Virus record (IMG/VR): IMGVR_UViG_3300041407_000182
Span: 1-34,113 of that record
Source of the DNA: a virus
Direction: 5' to 3' (one strand)
DNA length: 34,113 nt
Positions 1,244-33,872 of the stretch are shown here, one piece after another; the first letter of the stretch is position 1, and every line of letters begins with the position of its first letter. The notes beneath the pieces are model-generated. The model was not told where the DNA came from and made no database searches. It worked only from the letters and a program-made list of their open reading frames with translations. Both the position numbers and the translations under genes were made by a program.

Positions 1244-1355
1244 GGAAGAGACGCTTGCAGTGCTCCGCTACCCCCAACCCTCATGAGTAGCTTATGCTGG
1301 GTCTCCACCGGGCCTGTGCCAAACCAGCTGCTTATGTTTTGAAATGGAGATTCGA

Positions 1356-2204
1356 ATGAAGGTTGAGACAATTGCTGAGCAACTGCTTTTCACCACTGTC
1401 AAAATAGAAACCGTGCATCCGAATGCTACAGGCTTTGGGACCGGCTTTTTTTTTATTCATGAACATCAAGGCGGCGAATACCCGTTCATCGTAACCAATA
1501 AACACGTCATAAAAGGAGCGGTGGGAGGAAAGCTAATATTCACGCAAAAAGGAGCTGACGGGGAGCCGCTCATCGGCCAACGCGTCACCCTAAATATGAA
1601 GCAAGAGGTATGGGAAGAATCGTGGTTCGGTCACCCGGACCCAGCTATTGATATCGCTGTAATGGCTCTAGAGCCTTTAATTCAGCAAGTTTCTGAAATG
1701 TTCCCAGTTGGGATTTTTTACATCGGGCTGAATGTCGGAATGATGCCCACCGCCGAGCAACTTAGCCAACTTGATGTACTCGAACAAGTCGCATTTGTTG
1801 GCTATCCAAACGGAGTATGGGACTCCAAGAACCTCATACCCATTATGCGACGGGGCACAACCGCAACGCCTCTGACATTGGACTTTGAAGGCGAGCCAAA
1901 ATTTTTAATTGATGCTTCGGTTTTTGGGGGGTCAAGTGGAAGCCCAGTGTTTATTTTAGATAATGGATTAGTTACAGACAGAAATGGCACGACTTCAATG
2001 CGCTCGCGCATTCATTTCATTGGCGTCATTGCACAGGTCTATCACCGAACCGACTTAAATGCAGTGATTGCAATCCCTATTCCTACACAGTATCAGCCAG
2101 GTGTCGAGACTAAACAGATGATAGATCTCGGAATCGTGATCAAGGCCCGAACGGTGGTTGAGGCGATCATGGCCTACCTGGCTATTCATGCTGAGCCTGA
2201 GTGA
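1356..2204 (+). CDS. Stand-alone trypsin-like serine protease (cargo gene)
   Basis: This 282-aa protein has the chymotrypsin/HtrA-like fold signature: His50 in TNKHVI, Asp99 in AIDIAVM and Ser194 in GGSSGSPVF. It has no signal peptide, membrane segment or PDZ domain, so it is probably a cytoplasmic single-domain protease. The start is ATG 1356 behind TGGAG; an ATG 12 bases upstream lacks a ribosome site. It is the only + strand gene at this end, converges on the late operon and is more AT-rich than the phage genes. These traits fit an independently expressed moron. Trypsin-like domains are effectors in several bacterial anti-phage systems, so defence is a reasonable guess but unproven; a virion-related processing role is less likely. 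Confidence 0.85.
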   Translation: MKVETIAEQLLFTTVKIETVHPNATGFGTGFFFIHEHQGGEYPFIVTNKHVIKGAVGGKLIFTQKGADGEPLIGQRVTLNMKQEVWEESWFGHPDPAIDIAVMALEPLIQQVSEMFPVGIFYIGLNVGMMPTAEQLSQLDVLEQVAFVGYPNGVWDSKNLIPIMRRGTTATPLTLDFEGEPKFLIDASVFGGSSGSPVFILDNGLVTDRNGTTSMRSRIHFIGVIAQVYHRTDLNAVIAIPIPTQYQPGVETKQMIDLGIVIKARTVVEAIMAYLAIHAEPE

Positions 2205-12006: not shown

Positions 12007-12320
12007 AGGACTACCTCGATAGATCCAAATTCAACGGTTTTGGCCGTGACCAGGTACTGCCCTGGCTCTTGCTTGATAAAGCGGGTGGTTCCCGGTACCA
12101 GGCGATCGTCGTTCTCTACGAGCAGCTCCAGCTGCTGGATGCAGTCGGCCTGGCGGTATCGGTTGCGCTCGCCGACTAGGGTCACCAGCAGGCCGCTGTC
12201 GCGGATCATGTGGGCGATGTCCTGGGCGATGCTGGCCCGGTCATCGATCAGCAACGGCTGATTCGAAGCGTCCAGGGTCAGGTCGTTGTGGGTGATCAGC
12301 AGATCGATATAGAGGCTCAT
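12003..12320 (-). CDS. DUF2590/gpW-like baseplate wedge protein
   Basis: This 105-aa protein overlaps the tape-measure stop in ATGA and precedes J, as gpW/gp25-like and DUF2590 proteins do. Family-like segments are IDDRASIAQDIAHMIRDSG and LLVTLVGERNRYRQ. It is likely the small wedge subunit that helps trigger sheath polymerisation. DUF2590 occurs in HP1-type phages with DUF2586 and DUF2597, both present here. Confidence 0.78.
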   Translation of the reverse strand: MSLYIDLLITHNDLTLDASNQPLLIDDRASIAQDIAHMIRDSGLLVTLVGERNRYRQADCIQQLELLVENDDRLVPGTTRFIKQEPGQYLVTAKTVEFGSIEVVL

Positions 12321-14347
12321 CCGCCCACCGCCATGCTCACCATGTTTTCCATTTCCAGCGGGGTCATCGGCTTGCTGTTCTGGATCGTCACGCTGCCAAC
12401 GTGGGTGACCTTCCCCTGATTCTGGTTGGTCGTGTTCTGGATGCTGCGCAGCAGGCCACCTTGGGGCACGGCAGTGGGCCCTATCGGCGACAGACCGCCC
12501 GACGTGCCGCTGCTCATGCGTTGGCGTGCCTGTTCGGCTTGTTCGGTCAGCGGCGGCGTGGTGACCAGTTGTGGCGGTGCCGGCACGTTGACCAGGGGCG
12601 CGGAAATGCCGGGAATCTCCGGCGCTTTAGGTATCTCGCCAAAGGCCGCATCGATCTGCACGCCGGGGATCTTGTTCAGCATTTCGATCAGGCCGTTGAT
12701 CGCGTCCTTGAAGATCGCGACGATGCCGTCCCAAGCCGCGCTGGCCATGCCGGTCCAACCGCCGATCGAGCCGAACCAATCCGACAGCGCCTGCAGCTTG
12801 CCGGCGATCCACTGGAACGCGGCGGTGTTCATCAGTGCAGCGGTCCATTGGTCCCAGTAGACGATCGCGGCAACCACCATCGCGACCAGGGCAACGATTC
12901 CGACAATGATCAGCAGCACCGGGTTGGCCAGCATGGCGGCGTTGACCAGCCAGATCGCACCCTGCCACAGCAACATGCCGACCCTGACCAAACCCATCCA
13001 GGTGTACAGCGCAACCAAGCCAACCACGAACGCGGCAACCAACACCGTCTGCAGCAGGAACATGGCGATACTGCGAAAACCCGTCCAGTTCAGCAGTTTC
13101 CAGACGGTGACCAGCGACAACCAAACCATCTTGCTCATGCCCACGACCAGGGTCATCGTGGCCATAGCAGCGATCAGCCCAAAGACCACCAGCACGGTGA
13201 TGCCGATCACCCGGGTAATGTTCGGGAACAACTGGGTCCAACGGGTCAGTGTTCCGGCGATGCCCACCAGCTTGTCCATCAGCGGGGTCAGCATCGGGAT
13301 CAGCGCCTGGCCGAAGGCAATGCGCAGCGCTTGGACGGCCGCGCCGAACTGTTGCCACGGGTCGACCATGGCCTTGGCCATCTTCTCGGCGCTCTCCAAG
13401 CCGCGAACTTTGCCCAACTGGTCGAGCCCGTTTTTGAACCGGTCGGTGTCCTTGGCCAGGGCATTAATCACCCTCGCCCCTTCACCGCCAAAAGCCTCGG
13501 TCAACTTGGTGCCGGCAGCGGCGCTGGTCAGGTCGCCGAACTTACCTTCGAGCTTGGCCAGAATGTCCGCCATCGGCATCAGCTGGCCGTTCTGCTCGGT
13601 GAATTTCAACTTGAGCTTTTCGGAGGCCGCGCCGATGTTCTCGAAAAACGACTTGTACAGTCCGCCAGCATCGCCGCCTTCCATGGTGCTGCTCAGCGTG
13701 CCGATCACCGCGAACTGCTCGGCGATATCGACGCCGGCCGTAGTGGCGAGCTGGCCCACCTCTTTGAACGCATCCTTGAGCTGTGCGCCGTCCGTGCGGA
13801 ACAGCTGCGCCGCCAGTGCCGTCTGGCCGCCCAGTTTCTCAACCCACTGGCTTTTGCCCATCGCGTCGGCCGAGGTTTTGAACAGGTTGTACATGGTGCC
13901 GACGTAGGCCCCCATGGTCTCGGCGTCGGACTTGGTGGCCTTGGCCAGCAGGTTGCTGGTGTTGGTGAAGGTGGCCAGCTGGTCACCGGACAACCCCTTG
14001 ATCGCGCCCGAGATGCTGTAGGCCGAGGCCACGAAGTCGCGGGCGTTCTCGCCGTAGTTCACGGAGAACTCCAGGGACTTTTTGTTCAGGGCATTCAATG
14101 CATCTTCAGCCACGCCCAGCGAGCGGACTTCGCCCAGGGCGCGGTTCATCTCCAGTGCCGGTTCCAGCGATTCGGAAATGGCCACGCCTGCGCCCACCAT
14201 GCCGGCCAGACCTGCGCCCATCTTCATGATGTTCTGCTGGCCTTGGGTGGCCAGGTCGGTGAAGCTGGTTTTCACCTTGCCCAGGGGCGCGCTGACCTTG
14301 TCGGTCAGACTCAGGATGAAAGCCAGTCGGGCGCTGCGGTCAGCCAT
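12317..14347 (-). CDS. Tail tape measure protein
   Basis: This 676-aa protein is a tape measure of the TP901 family. The N-terminal conserved domain (about 45-350) includes LEPALEMNRALGEVRSLG and MEGGDAGGLYKSFFE. A hydrophobic block at about 370-500 has several membrane-like segments (VIGITVLVVFGLIAAMATMT, VLLIIVGIVALVAMVVAAI). The C-terminus is Pro/Gln/Thr-rich. It sets tail length and passes into the cell membrane during injection. It starts seven bases after the end of the frameshifted chaperone frame, the usual order. Confidence 0.93.
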   Translation of the reverse strand: MADRSARLAFILSLTDKVSAPLGKVKTSFTDLATQGQQNIMKMGAGLAGMVGAGVAISESLEPALEMNRALGEVRSLGVAEDALNALNKKSLEFSVNYGENARDFVASAYSISGAIKGLSGDQLATFTNTSNLLAKATKSDAETMGAYVGTMYNLFKTSADAMGKSQWVEKLGGQTALAAQLFRTDGAQLKDAFKEVGQLATTAGVDIAEQFAVIGTLSSTMEGGDAGGLYKSFFENIGAASEKLKLKFTEQNGQLMPMADILAKLEGKFGDLTSAAAGTKLTEAFGGEGARVINALAKDTDRFKNGLDQLGKVRGLESAEKMAKAMVDPWQQFGAAVQALRIAFGQALIPMLTPLMDKLVGIAGTLTRWTQLFPNITRVIGITVLVVFGLIAAMATMTLVVGMSKMVWLSLVTVWKLLNWTGFRSIAMFLLQTVLVAAFVVGLVALYTWMGLVRVGMLLWQGAIWLVNAAMLANPVLLIIVGIVALVAMVVAAIVYWDQWTAALMNTAAFQWIAGKLQALSDWFGSIGGWTGMASAAWDGIVAIFKDAINGLIEMLNKIPGVQIDAAFGEIPKAPEIPGISAPLVNVPAPPQLVTTPPLTEQAEQARQRMSSGTSGGLSPIGPTAVPQGGLLRSIQNTTNQNQGKVTHVGSVTIQNSKPMTPLEMENMVSMAVGG

Positions 14348-14353
14348 GGATTG

Positions 14354-14542
14354 TTATCCGTTGAAGGCATGGGAAATGCCGTCAGCGACGGCAAAACTCA
14401 TGCGTTTCCAGTGTTCGTCTTCCAGCCACTTGGCCATGCCCATGTTCTCGATGGTGGGTTCGGCACCAGGCAGCCAGCGTTGGGTCAGGGCCAAAAGCTG
14501 GCCCAACCCGTCGTTGGTTAAGCCGTCAGCGTGGCTGAGGAC
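14354..14542 (-). CDS. Frameshift extension of tail assembly chaperone (gpE'-like)
   Basis: After a -1 slip at 14542-14548 the frame continues for 62 codons, beginning VLSHADGLTNDG and ending GISHAFNG, to a TAA at 14354-14356. The joined product would be about 155 aa (151 from the inner start). The extension has no start codon or ribosome site of its own, fills the otherwise empty gap before the tape measure gene, and reads like a protein (QLLALTQRWLPGAEPT, MAKWLEDEHWKRM). This mirrors E/E' of P2 and G/GT of lambda. Confidence 0.8.
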   Translation of the reverse strand, partial: VLSHADGLTNDGLGQLLALTQRWLPGAEPTIENMGMAKWLEDEHWKRMSFAVADGISHAFNG

Positions 14543-14820
14543 TTTTTTACGATGATGTCGATGTTCGGCGAGTACTCCTCGAGCAGCGCACCGGCGATGG
14601 TCATGGTGGTCACCGGATTTTCCAGCAGCGACTTCAGATCAGCCTTGCCTTCTGGCTTGACGGTGCTCATCAGCAGGTTGTGCGCTGGCGCGACCTTGTT
14701 CGCTTGAGTGGTTGCGTTGAAGTACTTGGTCACGTCCTGGGGCGTCAGGTGGAAGGTGAATTCCTGGTCGCCCATTTCCAGGGTGATATCGCGTTTTACG
14801 TCAGTCATTGGATGGTCCAT
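14518..14820 (-). CDS. Tail assembly chaperone, gpE-like (zero-frame product)
   Basis: This protein is 100 aa from ATG 14820, or 96 aa from the ATG 12 bases further on (MTDVKRD). It lies just before the tape measure gene, where P2 gpE-type chaperones sit, and contains ITLEMGDQEFTFHLTPQDV and NPVTTMTIAGALLEEYSP. Its last codons include the heptamer A AAA AAG in the proper frame, so part of the ribosomes should slip back one base and make a longer product. The chaperone pair would coat the tape measure during tail assembly. Confidence 0.85.
   Translation of the reverse strand: MDHPMTDVKRDITLEMGDQEFTFHLTPQDVTKYFNATTQANKVAPAHNLLMSTVKPEGKADLKSLLENPVTTMTIAGALLEEYSPNIDIIVKKSSATLTA
14542..14548 (-). 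other. Programmed -1 frameshift heptamer A AAA AAG
   Basis: Read on the minus strand, the zero frame is GTA AAA AAG TCC, giving the slippery heptamer A AAA AAG known from dnaX and several tail chaperone genes. Five bases downstream is an AGCC/GGCT stem, and about 36 bases downstream a stronger GGGCCA/TGGCCC stem. Either could stimulate slippage. Confidence 0.8.
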
Positions 14821-14845: not shown

Positions 14846-15328
14846 TCAGGGATTGGCGGGTATGTGTTGGCACACCTGCCGGGTGTAGTCCTGCAGGCCG
14901 AGGATCATTTGCCGACTTACGGCGAGCTGACTTCGAAGGGTGAAATAATCCGGTCGAGCGTCTGCTGCGAGTTCGGCGGTGCTTGCATCAGCCACGCCGG
15001 CGGCGCCGGTGGTTGTGGGCACTGCGGGTCTGCAGGTGGCACGGACTGGCAGCCGCTGACGGCCATCGTCAACATCGCGGCGCAGAGCGTCGTTTTCAGC
15101 GAGTGCATGGTTCAGTTCCTCGGTGTTTTTTTGGTCGACCTGGTCACGGGCGGCGAGCAGTTCACCGCTGATCCGGGCGGCCTCACGTAAGCCGATGACC
15201 TTGGACTGTGCGCTGTCACGTTCACGGCGGGCGTCGTCTCGCTGATCAGCGACCCAGCCAACTGCGCACCAGGCCAGCAAGCTGATGAGCACCAGAAACA
15301 GGAAAAGGCGTAGCGGACTGAGGGTCAT
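14846..15328 (-). CDS. Rz-like inner-membrane spanin
   Basis: This 160-aa protein has one N-terminal membrane anchor (LRLFLFLVLISLLAWCAVGWV), cytoplasm-facing N-terminus and a charged, helix-rich periplasmic domain (RDDARRERDSAQSKVIGLRE), as in Rz/LysB. The start ATG 15328 overlaps the endolysin stop in ATGA. It encloses the Rz1 gene in another frame, the classical embedded arrangement. Together they fuse inner and outer membranes at the end of lysis. Confidence 0.85.
   Translation of the reverse strand: MTLSPLRLFLFLVLISLLAWCAVGWVADQRDDARRERDSAQSKVIGLREAARISGELLAARDQVDQKNTEELNHALAENDALRRDVDDGRQRLPVRATCRPAVPTTTGAAGVADASTAELAADARPDYFTLRSQLAVSRQMILGLQDYTRQVCQHIPANP
14917..15108 (-). CDS. Rz1-like outer-membrane spanin lipoprotein
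   Basis: This 63-aa protein is encoded wholly inside the Rz gene in a different frame. It has a short signal sequence and a lipobox (AVSGC, lipidated Cys20), then a mature part of about 44 residues, rich in proline (SVPPADPQCPQPPAPP), which is the hallmark of Rz1. It would be exported and anchored in the outer membrane and bind Rz through its tail. Confidence 0.85.
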   Translation of the reverse strand: MHSLKTTLCAAMLTMAVSGCQSVPPADPQCPQPPAPPAWLMQAPPNSQQTLDRIISPFEVSSP

Positions 15329-16052: not shown

Positions 16053-16261
16053 CGGAGAACCTCTTCCTCAAAAATGGACTGGCACGGGACGCAACGGGTT
16101 ATCCCGCCCAACGCTTGACGCGCTGCAGGGATCTCGTTGTCGCAGTCCTGGCAATGGGTCCGGCTCGGTCCGGACGGGCGCGGGCGGGCGAGCTGCGCCG
16201 CAATGGCCTTGTCGCGCTCGCGCTGCTCTTGCGCCTGGGCGCGATCGAACCAGTCCACCAT
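16049..16261 (-). CDS. TraR/DksA-family zinc-finger protein
   Basis: This 70-aa protein has a C-terminal four-cysteine finger (CQDC at about 37-40 and CVPC at about 57-60) preceded by a charged helix, the layout of TraR and short phage DksA homologues. Such proteins enter the RNA polymerase secondary channel and act like DksA with ppGpp. It lies between tube and holin and is coupled to both by 1- and 4-base overlaps, so it would appear late. Confidence 0.85.
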   Translation of the reverse strand: MVDWFDRAQAQEQRERDKAIAAQLARPRPSGPSRTHCQDCDNEIPAARQALGGITRCVPCQSIFEEEVLR

Positions 16262-16713
16262 CAGCTCAGGCCTTCGATTTCAGTGGCGTCCAGGTACGGC
16301 ACACCGTTGATTTTCACGAAGTCCGGACTGGTGACGTCATACGGGATCTTGTGCTTGTTCTTTTCCGCGCCCTTGGGGTCGATGCTCAGCAGGCTGGACA
16401 GGCGCAACTTGCAGCCGAAGGCCTCAATGCGCAGCTCTTCCTCGCCCGCTTTGGCGAAGAACACAATGTCGAACGGAGCCAGTGACCGGAAACTGCCGGC
16501 GGTTTTGGCCGATTCGATCAGCAGGTTGAAGTTGGTGGTGTCCAGCTCCAGCTCGCCCGCTGCGGACACGTCGCCGTCAACGTGCCCGTCAGGCACGCCC
16601 CGGGTTTGCGCCACGGCGGTGTTGTCGGTGATGTCCAGAGTGCAGCTCTCCACGTGAACCTTGAGGTCGCCCAGGTTCACGTCGAAGTTCTTGCCGCCGA
16701 TTTTTGCTGACAT
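16261..16713 (-). CDS. Tail tube protein, DUF2597 family
   Basis: This 150-aa protein follows the sheath gene by 3 bp, the expected place of the tube. The N-terminus MSAKIGGKNFDVNLGDLKV and the central GVPDGHVDGDVSAAGELELD are typical of DUF2597. It forms the inner tube of the contractile tail and pairs with the DUF2586 sheath, a combination typical of HP1-like rather than P2-like (FI/FII) tails. Confidence 0.85.
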   Translation of the reverse strand: MSAKIGGKNFDVNLGDLKVHVESCTLDITDNTAVAQTRGVPDGHVDGDVSAAGELELDTTNFNLLIESAKTAGSFRSLAPFDIVFFAKAGEEELRIEAFGCKLRLSSLLSIDPKGAEKNKHKIPYDVTSPDFVKINGVPYLDATEIEGLS

Positions 16714-16716
16714 GGG

Positions 16717-17832
16717 TTACTCCGAATCGTCGGTCGAAAGGTCCAGCGCGATGTTCGCGGTCAGGTCTTTCGGGCAGTTGAGGGGGCGCAGCTTGATGTA
16801 GGCCACGACGGCGGTTTTGCTCATCCAGGTCAGGACAATGTCGCCGTCCTTGGGCTGCTCGATCTCGCCTGGGAACACAGCACCGCCGAAGGTCGTCGAC
16901 TTGGCCATCGCGCGCAGCGGAGCCATCAGTGCGTTGACGGCCACGGCCATGCTGTTGGCGCTGCTGTTCAAGCGGCGATCGGCCACACGGCGGATCAGCA
17001 GCGGGCGGATCTGGCGAGCGGCCTTGTCGACGGTGCGCAGGTACTCGATCACCTGGAAGTCGCTGCTTGGCGCGTCGAGCATGTTGCCGTCGCCCCAGAA
17101 CACGCCCGGGTAGTCCGGATACGTCTGGCTGACCGAGAAGCGGGCCGCGTCCAGGGCGCTGCGGATGGCTGACTGCAGGGGAATGCTGTCTACGTCAGTA
17201 GGCACTGCGCCCAAGCCCAGCAAGGCACCGGTGGCCACGCGCATGGGGCTGTCGGCAATGCTTACGGCAGCGTTGGCCAGGCGTCCGGCCAGAACGCCCA
17301 GGTCATTGCCGTGCAGCTGGGGAACGACCAGGACACGCGGCGCTGCAAGGCCTAGGGTGATTGCCTGTTGCTCGGCCAGGTATTCCGCCCAGGTCTGGGT
17401 TGGCTTAATGCCGGAGGTGGCCGCCATGACGAACACACGCCGGCCATAGATATTGCTCAGCTCAATGGCTGCCTCGTGCATGTCCGACAGCGCGTCAGCG
17501 GCGGTCACGGGAGTGGTGATCACCACGGCCTCAACCGAGTGCCCGAGCTGCTGCGCTTTCTCCAAAGCGTCATACCAGTCGTCATCGGCGGCGACCGGTG
17601 CTGCCAGGCAGGCCCAGCGATCGCCACCATTCAAGCGTGCGGCCGTGATCTGGGTTTTCAGGTCGCTGGCCGGGACGCCCAGTTGTACGTCCAGGTCGCT
17701 GTCGGTGTTCAAGGGGATCAGCGAACCGACGCTTTTCGCGCCTACGCCGATGAAAAGGAAATAGCGTTCAACCGCCGTCACAGCGCCTTGGCCGAGATTG
17801 AGATTGTTAACGCTGACTTTGCCGAGTGCCAT
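16717..17832 (-). CDS. Contractile tail sheath, DUF2586 family
   Basis: This 371-aa protein fits the DUF2586 sheath family: N-terminus MALGKVSVNNLNLGQGAVTA, a subtilisin-like core (AVVITTPVTAADALSDM, RRVFVMAATSGIKP) and a C-terminal assembly part (IEYLRTVDKAARQIRPLLIR). It polymerises around the tube and contracts on infection. The start is ATG 17832. It follows the S-like gene and leads the tail-lysis block. Confidence 0.88.
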   Translation of the reverse strand: MALGKVSVNNLNLGQGAVTAVERYFLFIGVGAKSVGSLIPLNTDSDLDVQLGVPASDLKTQITAARLNGGDRWACLAAPVAADDDWYDALEKAQQLGHSVEAVVITTPVTAADALSDMHEAAIELSNIYGRRVFVMAATSGIKPTQTWAEYLAEQQAITLGLAAPRVLVVPQLHGNDLGVLAGRLANAAVSIADSPMRVATGALLGLGAVPTDVDSIPLQSAIRSALDAARFSVSQTYPDYPGVFWGDGNMLDAPSSDFQVIEYLRTVDKAARQIRPLLIRRVADRRLNSSANSMAVAVNALMAPLRAMAKSTTFGGAVFPGEIEQPKDGDIVLTWMSKTAVVAYIKLRPLNCPKDLTANIALDLSTDDSE

Positions 17833-32455: not shown

Positions 32456-33655
32456 TTAATCAGTTGTTACAACGTTCTTCTGTAGCCACAACGACCAGCG
32501 CTGTAGTCCTCGCTGCTTCTCTTTGAAATAGTCGTACCGATCGTAGTGTTTGGACGACACATCGTTAAATGCGTGGCCTTGTATCCGATCGCGCAATTCC
32601 TTGTCCAAGCCCGCAACCCCCATTAGCGTTTTACAGGTCCGTCGAACGTCACGAAGGGTGAACGGCCCGTCGAACAGTTTTGTGTGTCGGCTGTAAAGCT
32701 TCGTCACCGCTCTGGACAACGATTGAGTGTGCAGGGGCTTGTCTTCCATCTTCCCCATGAACCGATAGGCACTCGTTTCGCTGATCTCATCCAGAGTCTT
32801 CAGACTTTTCCGCATCAATCTGTTGTACGGCACTGCGTGCAAGATCCGCTCACCGTCGACGCCCTTGAGGTTACGGATCACCAGGTGATCGTCGAAGTAC
32901 TGCTTTCGCGTAGTGCCCAGCAATTGTTGGGGGCGCTGGCCACCTGACGCGATCAGGAACTTGATCAGCTCAGACGTCACAAGCGATAGCTGTTCGGGCA
33001 GCAAATTCCATAGGGATTTTAGTTCAGCAACGGACAACGCCCGATTCCCTGGTTGCTCCCAGTCAGCCTGCACGGGAATGCTGGCCACCGGATTGCTCAG
33101 TAAACCGAACTGGACCTTGTTCTGCAGATAGTTGCGCGGGTTGTGCTCTTGCTCCAAACCCAACTGGAACGCGGCGTGCAGTTGCGATCGCACGCGGTTG
33201 CAGTAGGTGGTGATGCCGTTGTCGATCATCCTCGCAATAACAGTACGGATCTCGACCGGTCCAATCATGGCGACCGGACGCTCGACCATTTGTGGAAACG
33301 GCCGAGTCACATAGCGTTCAAAGGAGCTTTTCACGTCCTCGACTGACGCTGCATTCTCAGCCCGCAGCTTGGCGATGTAGTTGTCCATCAGTTGCTGGAA
33401 CGTGCCCGCCGAAATTACCAGTTCCTTTTCTTCACGGCAGTTATCCCTGGCTGCGGTCAAGCTCAACCCCGGCCATGTGCCCAGCTTTGTGAGTTTCTTC
33501 TTTCCGCCAACGAAGCGTTGAAAATAGAACTCCTTTGTCCCGTTCGGGCGAATCTTGAGTATCAATACTCCCTCCCCCCTCGCACTACGCCCGTCCGAAA
33601 TAACGTATGGATTTTCCCGTGGCTGCAGCGCTCGTATCTGCTTATCCGTGAGCAT
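32456..33655 (-). CDS. int: Tyrosine-recombinase integrase
   Basis: This 399-aa integrase has an N-terminal DUF4102-like arm-binding domain (about 1-80), a core-binding domain (85-185) and a catalytic domain with Arg241 (SGGQRPQQLL), Lys264, Arg338 (LRDVRRT), His361 (QGHAF) and nucleophile Tyr371 (KHYDRY). The usual His of box II (HxLR) is Arg335, a substitution I recall in related phage integrases. The gene starts 170 bp from attR and inserts the phage into tRNA-Gly. Confidence 0.92.
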   Translation of the reverse strand: MLTDKQIRALQPRENPYVISDGRSARGEGVLILKIRPNGTKEFYFQRFVGGKKKLTKLGTWPGLSLTAARDNCREEKELVISAGTFQQLMDNYIAKLRAENAASVEDVKSSFERYVTRPFPQMVERPVAMIGPVEIRTVIARMIDNGITTYCNRVRSQLHAAFQLGLEQEHNPRNYLQNKVQFGLLSNPVASIPVQADWEQPGNRALSVAELKSLWNLLPEQLSLVTSELIKFLIASGGQRPQQLLGTTRKQYFDDHLVIRNLKGVDGERILHAVPYNRLMRKSLKTLDEISETSAYRFMGKMEDKPLHTQSLSRAVTKLYSRHTKLFDGPFTLRDVRRTCKTLMGVAGLDKELRDRIQGHAFNDVSSKHYDRYDYFKEKQRGLQRWSLWLQKNVVTTD

Positions 33656-33825: not shown

Positions 33826-33872
33826 AGCTTCCCAAGCTGATAACGAGGGTTCGATTCCCTTCACCCGCTCCA
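33826..33872 (+). repeat. attR core (47-bp direct repeat)
   Basis: This is an exact second copy of 81-127. Upstream it is followed leftwards by an extra tRNA-like block (33804-33816 equals 65-77), but with a 9-base instead of 3-base spacer, and the acceptor 5' strand is absent. It is therefore not a working tRNA. Chromosomal DNA starts at 33873. Confidence 0.92.

Follow-up and report, generated by a model that had tools for sequence, protein, structure and literature searches.

We find that a tail assembly chaperone gene, carried by what its sequence indicates is a Pseudomonas prophage, is very probably translated into a short and a long product through a −1 ribosomal slip at the heptamer A_AAA_AAG. 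A programmed −1 frameshift in this gene had been claimed in a preliminary description of the DNA, and the evidence from sequence evolution supports it well: the A6 site is conserved and the −1 frame is selected as protein. The frameshift thus appears to be real, if ordinary in kind. We infer the slippage itself, its efficiency and the binding roles of the two products. Most ribosomes would terminate at position 14518 and release a 100-aa chaperone. A minority would slip back by one base, with tRNA-Lys on AAA and AAG, and translate 62 more codons, giving a fusion of the chaperone with DUF6890. By analogy with the lambda gpG/gpGT model, as described in passages of PMC5009743, the short form would bind the tape measure protein, and recruitment of the tube subunit would fall to the less abundant long form. 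The ratio of short to long product would then matter for tail assembly.

Prophage setting and tail module

The window, by which we mean the whole stretch of DNA analyzed, is IMG/VR record IMGVR_UViG_3300041407_000182 and comprises 34,113 nt. It is most likely an integrated prophage, because an exact 47-bp direct repeat (81-127 and 33826-33872) flanks nearly all of it and the left copy lies in a tRNA gene, forming the 3′ part of tRNA-Gly(CCC) at 54-127. The two repeats are probably attL and attR of a prophage of ~33.7 kb. An integrase-like open reading frame (ORF) is present at 32456-33655. About 1.2 kb from the left repeat, and oriented opposite to the tail genes, a trypsin-like peptidase (PF13365, E 3.8e-9) is encoded at 1344-2204 (+); it may be cargo.

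By DNA, the nearest annotated phage to the frameshift region (601-base query) is Pseudomonas phage UFJF_PfPro, at 74.8% over 82% of the query, followed by phi3 and its kin at 70.2% over 72%. All three HP1-group tail module families are present in the window (tube PF10772, chaperone PF10963 and extension PF21830). The tail sheath is encoded at 16717-17832 (−; PF10758 DUF2586, phrog_907) and the tail tube protein at 16261-16713 (−; PF10772 Phage_HP1_Orf24), the tube call resting on gene order and the labels of homologs. The tail tape measure protein is encoded at 12317-14347 (−; PF10145 and TIGR01760). Antisense to its gene runs a 706-codon open frame (12401-14521, +), which is probably an artifact because of the GC-rich codon use. 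Between the tube and chaperone genes lie other genes, an Rz-like lysis gene (PF03245; 14846-15337, −) among them. This gene encloses, in another frame, a lipoprotein-like 63-aa ORF at 14917-15108 (−), as expected for an embedded outer spanin.

The chaperone gene, its slip site and its extension

The short, zero-frame product of 100 aa is encoded at 14518-14820 (−) and matches PF10963 (Phage_TAC_10; E 7.3e-18) and phrog_1214 (E 5.1e-33). All 25 aligned chaperone members matched PF10963, and five of the 25 also gave a weak side match to DUF6848 (best E 3.6e-6). The true start may lie at about 14808, because the other aligned Pseudomonas rows begin at or near the residue that corresponds to Met5 of this ORF. 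The predicted fold of the short product is chaperone-like, with a beta-hairpin and four helices (mean pLDDT 86.7). It matches 3fgx_A, an uncharacterized Bacillus protein (Z 9.1, rmsd 2.8, 84 aligned), which was also returned, at E 0.035, when solved structures were searched by sequence. Weaker Foldseek matches were predicted proteins of Gordonia and Mycobacterium phages that carry the annotation tail assembly chaperone; the best of the named ones has E 0.014, and none reaches 0.001.

The chaperone ORF ends in ...IDIIVKKSSATLTA*, its TAA stop (14518-14520, −) lying 21 nt past the slippery heptamer A_AAA_AAG at 14542-14548 (−), which is read as GTA AAA AAG (Val-Lys-Lys) in the zero frame. From the heptamer, the −1 frame continues as two lysines and 62 further residues (14354-14548, −) to a TAA at 14354-14356, leaving a gap of 6 nt before the ATG of the tape measure gene at 14347, which the chaperone gene adjoins upstream. 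This agrees with the preliminary description, which had placed A AAA AAG in the correct frame near the end of the chaperone gene and had the −1 frame add 62 residues up to the tape measure. The peptide that it offered as a marker of the fusion, QLLALTQR-WLPGAEP, is found in the −1 translation.

The extension matches DUF6890 (PF21830, E 6.4e-19) over residues 20-63 of the 63-aa extension read, and phrog_7050 (E 3.4e-24) only from residue 17 onward. It is predicted to form a pair of long helices that span residues 2-25 and 33-63 (mean pLDDT 87.7). Most of the first helix falls outside the DUF6890 model, which would follow if the model derives from late-starting ORFs and suggests that it begins too late, ~20 residues past the slip. 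A fold search with the extension gave no usable match (best E 3.7), a sequence search of solved structures gave no convincing one, and a side match to DUF6961 was seen for one of 25 extensions. DUF6890, phrog_7050 and phrog_1214 have no assigned function in the libraries used. We propose that DUF6890 and phrog_7050 likely represent the frameshifted extension, and phrog_1214 the body, of a tail assembly chaperone.

Taken singly, the window is weak evidence for a frameshift; the relatives decide. Among 4,831 codon positions in 15 window ORFs, A_AAA_AAG occurs in frame once, at this site, and A_AAA_AAC twice elsewhere. In the codon use of the window, the probability of GTA AAA AAG given Val-Lys-Lys is 0.020, and GTA accounts for 31 of the 372 Val codons in 13 window ORFs. 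The bare motif, with frame ignored, is unremarkable: AAAAAAG is found 6 times against 3.54 expected, and 15 of 100 shuffles reach 6. An open −1 frame by itself is equally unremarkable, since 15.7% of 3,632 stretches of 63 codons in 12 window structural genes are open in −1. Both counts speak for the rival reading that the frame opened by chance in a GC-rich gene overlap and has no role. Furthermore, the window sequence alone cannot pin the shift to the heptamer, because the −1 frame is open upstream as far as a stop 93 nt before it.

Conservation of the site among relatives

Relatives were collected from scans of IMG/VR and of GTDB genome contigs and from annotated phages. The scans with A3, A4 and A5 used patterns that exclude the slip codons; in the chaperone scan and the HP1 scan, one pattern of six reaches into the slip lysines. 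Three viral scans contributed the best 80 of 406, 88 and 439 relatives, respectively. Nine of 454 sequences had no plus-strand match and were dropped, namely six reverse duplicates (L080-L085), a copy of the window (L001) and two contig-end fragments (L067 and L079). The slip site was searched for as an A6 run within 9 nt of the homologous position, in steps of 3.

An A6 run was present at the homologous position in 443 of the 445 tblastn-matched records, in which some contigs are present twice. These 443 records reduce to 340 distinct 249-nt sequences in 42 clusters at 80% identity, from which the two records without A6 were left out. One of the two (L190) is a contig that starts inside the extension; in the other (L335) the run is lost around position 1501 (GTA AAG ATA TAA) and the extension is intact. 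Of the 340 sequences, 337 have GTA as the zero-frame codon that supplies the first A, two have CTA and one has TAA. AAAAAAG occurs at 77 of 77 loci from the genome-contig scan and in all 166 distinct Pseudomonas-group sequences, and so the supposition that the heptamer is peculiar to this phage is not borne out. Many third positions near the site vary, while the nine columns GT-AAAAAA-G are themselves fixed in 165 distinct Pseudomonas-group sequences.

The −1 frame is conserved as well, which was a check that the preliminary description had put forward. The −1 ORF falls below 60 codons in only two of 345 distinct sequences (L028 and L373, each with one duplicate). L028 shares with L027 a junction ~75 nt past the chaperone stop, where the extension runs into different sequence; this may be recombination or a shared misassembly. 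The HP1-type pair L372/L373 has an extension of just 46 codons owing to an internal indel, through decay or sequencing error. A Vibrio-type sequence (L277) has an A8 run around position 1501 that places chaperone and extension in one frame, either a natural fusion or a sequencing error. Chaperone relatives were also found in four of 72,556 plasmid records (H113-H116; Pantoea, Enterobacter, Vibrio and Serratia), one of them only 30.8 kb long; these are possibly phage-plasmids or prophages in plasmids.

Relatives also locate the shift more closely than the window does. The nearest upstream −1-frame stop lies a median of 12 nt before the heptamer in sequences with AAAAAAG (AAG class, 165 sequences) and 6 nt before it in those with AAAAAAC (AAC class, 97). 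In all 97 AAC-class sequences, and in 79 of 80 with AAAAAAA (AAA class), the heptamer is followed at once by the zero-frame stop. Where a close upstream −1 stop is combined with an abutting zero-frame stop, the shift is confined to the heptamer.

Selection on the two frames

We estimated dN/dS (Nei-Gojobori) from 3,000 random pairs among 165 distinct Pseudomonas-group sequences. Note that such pairs share ancestry and are not phylogenetically independent, and that the figures are descriptive and the contrast between frames is what counts: dN/dS was 0.37 for the chaperone body; 2.62 in the zero frame versus 0.30 in −1 for the seven codons from the heptamer to the stop; and, beyond the zero-frame stop, 0.157 in −1, 1.09 in the zero frame and 2.55 in +1. 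By this measure, the Pseudomonas-group extension evolves as protein in the −1 frame and in no other. The comparative data contradict a chance opening, to which we attach a negligible probability. Site and frame are kept throughout the 340 distinct sequences and their 42 clusters, the −1 frame has the lowest dN/dS of the three, and its product is predicted to form a two-helix domain.

The preliminary description expected automatic annotation to miss the extension, and for the most part it does. Of 22 annotated phage records examined, 14 list nothing, seven give a separate ORF and one, that of phage ACA1, joins the frames. The long product is hence omitted or split in most of these records. The seven separate ORFs raise the question of whether the extension is a small gene in its own right that has a separate start codon and is translated past the chaperone stop by coupling or re-initiation, the overlap being incidental. 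Candidate starts do exist: among extension codons 3 to 20, ATG, GTG or TTG occurs in 138 of the 165 sequences of the AAG class (ATG in 51) and in 77 of the 81 of the AAA class (ATG in 75), and the late beginnings of the DUF6890 and phrog_7050 matches look as if those families had been built from such ORFs. In the AAC class, however, 75 of 97 sequences have no such codon in this interval, and none of the remaining 22 has an ATG. A start preceded by a 4-nt Shine-Dalgarno-like match, scored in a crude upstream window, was seen in only nine of 343 sequences (four in the AAG class, none in the AAA class). A separate gene would also leave unexplained why, from heptamer to stop, the −1 frame and not the zero frame shows purifying selection, why the extension protein is alignable from the slip lysines onward across hosts, and why GTA AAA AA hardly varies at synonymous positions. 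We therefore consider a separate gene very unlikely.

A second product could also arise from transcriptional rather than ribosomal slippage, given that the site is a run of A. Bacterial slippage of this kind is cited for runs of more than 7 A or more than 8 T (passages of PMC3711429). With the exception of L277, no run here exceeds 7: the AAG and AAC classes have A6, and the AAA class has A7. Moreover, the A_AAA_AAN framing is needed by tandem tRNA slippage but not by transcriptional slippage, which we rate as slightly less probable even than a separate gene. Ribosomal slippage at the heptamer remains by far the most probable source of the long product.

RNA structure near the site

The preliminary description also took stems to be specific to this phage. 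Two are predicted in the window, a short stem one base past the heptamer (14523-14540, −) and a main hairpin ~32 nt past it (14482-14509, −), which may simply reflect the GQLxAL motif encoded there. Both pair above slid controls: 77% versus at most 54% for the main hairpin (77 representatives), and 69% of cells versus at most 46% for the short stem (71 representatives). Double changes in the main hairpin affect three of 11 pairs versus two to four when slid, which is no excess. Folding z over 70 nt was −3.5 for the window, −4.2 for phi3 and −2.0 for L072, and L077 gave no fold (z +1.1). RNAalifold returned −9.3 kcal/mol with the main hairpin for 41 window-like representatives and −2.0 for 32 phi3-like ones. 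We also resampled synonymous codons over the 60 nt from the last heptamer base. For the AAG class (45 of 64 representatives tested), the mean z was −0.93 at the heptamer, which does not improve on the −1.04 seen at +66. The AAC and AAA classes gave −1.94 (all 37) and −2.57 (all 19), both weakening downstream. Against base shuffles, the mean z values were 0.16 and −0.74. Given the weak resampling z, the lack of excess double changes and the distance of 32 nt, a role of the downstream stems as stimulators in the Pseudomonas group is neither established nor disproved, and the claim of phage-specific stems is not supported.

An upstream candidate stimulator, the Shine-Dalgarno-like GAGGAG 27-32 nt before the heptamer, was set aside. 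The corresponding element of dnaX lies roughly 10 nt upstream of the slip site, and GAGGAG is further away than this. A pattern search for the lysine tRNA of the host, run on four genomes, gave matches in only one, and its three matches were not tRNA genes according to ARAGORN.

Structure is clearer in some other relatives. The enteric/Aeromonas group has an 8-bp hairpin beginning 8 nt past the heptamer. Across 36 representatives, 96% of its cells are paired, where slid controls reach at most 39%, and there are double changes in three of eight pairs (zero to two when slid); its innermost pair is A-U in 11 and G-C in 22. RNAalifold gave −11.4 for this group, −17.2 for the HP1 group and −10.2 for the F108 group, and found no consensus structure for the Vibrio-type group. 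When representatives were pooled by heptamer class, there was no consensus apart from weak values.

Site classes and a possible division into two designs

The 340 distinct sequences fall into AAAAAAG with a stop 21 nt later (163 sequences), AAAAAAC with a stop at once (97), AAAAAAA with a stop at once (79) and AAAAAAA with a stop 21 nt later (one, ACA1). In relatives from hosts other than Pseudomonas, the C- or A-ending heptamers with an abutting stop prevail. A_AAA_AAG is reported to shift far more readily in E. coli than the other two heptamers, A_AAA_AAC and A_AAA_AAA (passages of PMC5009743). This difference leads us to a tentative and rather doubtful reading, in which the HP1-group chaperone, with a tube-recruiting DUF6890, would have two designs. 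In the Pseudomonas clade, the strong heptamer A_AAA_AAG would act alone, with the zero-frame stop exactly seven codons on. In enteric, Aeromonas, Pasteurellaceae and Vibrio relatives, a weaker A_AAA_AAC or A_AAA_AAA would be combined with an abutting stop and a selected RNA structure just downstream, such that termination pausing and structure would stand in for heptamer strength. The failure of the Vibrio-type group to give a consensus structure weakens this reading, and ACA1 breaks the pairing of heptamer class with stop distance. Heptamer class follows clade, in groups that were named by best-matching reference and not by tree, and so the association may reflect only one or two independent events.

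If the two-design reading is true, these phages provide a natural series for the trade-off of stop proximity and structure against slip-site strength. In any case the family is well sampled, and its natural AAG, AAC and AAA sites at two stop distances lend themselves to measuring what sets the ratio of products.

Comparison with known systems

The frameshift mechanism and its occurrence in the HP1 group are already known. The present analysis adds the wide conservation of the site, the assignment of DUF6890 and the two site classes, on which we found no paper in the open-licence literature searched. Likewise, we found there no paper that brings together tail assembly chaperone, frameshift and HP1, and no mention of DUF6890 or Phage_TAC_10.

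The closest likeness is to the HP1 group itself, represented by gp36/gp36a of ACA1 (GenBank OR438928.1) and orf26 of HP1, which share with the window a homologous chaperone and extension, an A-run slip site and a position before the tape measure gene. HP1's own chaperone and extension belong to PHROGs 1214 and 7050, as do those of the window. The sites differ: HP1 has A_AAA_AAC with the stop directly behind it, whereas the window has A_AAA_AAG and seven more codons, and ACA1 has A_AAA_AAA with the stop 21 nt later. ACA1 is an HP1-group member of the Peduoviridae from Pseudoalteromonas, and its GenBank annotation reads 'a projected programmed frameshift analogous to that in phage P2'. In the ACA1 phage paper, the word 'frameshift' occurs once, for a reverse transcriptase (PMC10612066). 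The RefSeq records of HP1 and HP2 leave the extension unannotated, and neither they nor the phi3 record join the two frames; for phage A051, chaperone and extension are given as two separate ORFs (passages of PMC11292799).

The preliminary description pointed to P2 and lambda as precedents, which is right as to the kind of mechanism; the sequence kinship is to HP1, and none to P2 E/E′ was detected. Like the window, P2 E/E+E′ is a Peduoviridae system with a −1 shift near the end of the chaperone gene and an extension just before the tape measure. Unlike the window, it has the slip site TTTTTTG and the domains PF10109 and PF06528. A further difference is the set of genes, the Rz-like one included, that separates tube from chaperone in the window. 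The slip site is listed as T6G for P2 and as T7G for Smp131 (passages of PMC3931495). PF10109 and PF06528 were not matched by window proteins at E up to 0.1, and P2's own proteins do match them. An hhalign comparison of TAC_10 and DUF6890 with P2 E/E′, in which P2 was represented by a single sequence, gave probabilities of 0.3 and 1.1. In lambda the slip sequence is GGGAAAG, and lambda G/GT resembles the window gene in its pairing of a short chaperone with a rarer frameshifted long form.

This likeness to lambda is drawn from passages of PMC5009743. In E. coli dnaX, the slip site is accompanied by an upstream Shine-Dalgarno-like element and a downstream hairpin (passages of PMC3711429), neither of which is established in the window gene; the heptamer itself, A_AAA_AAG, is the same in both (passages of PMC5009743 and PMC3711429).
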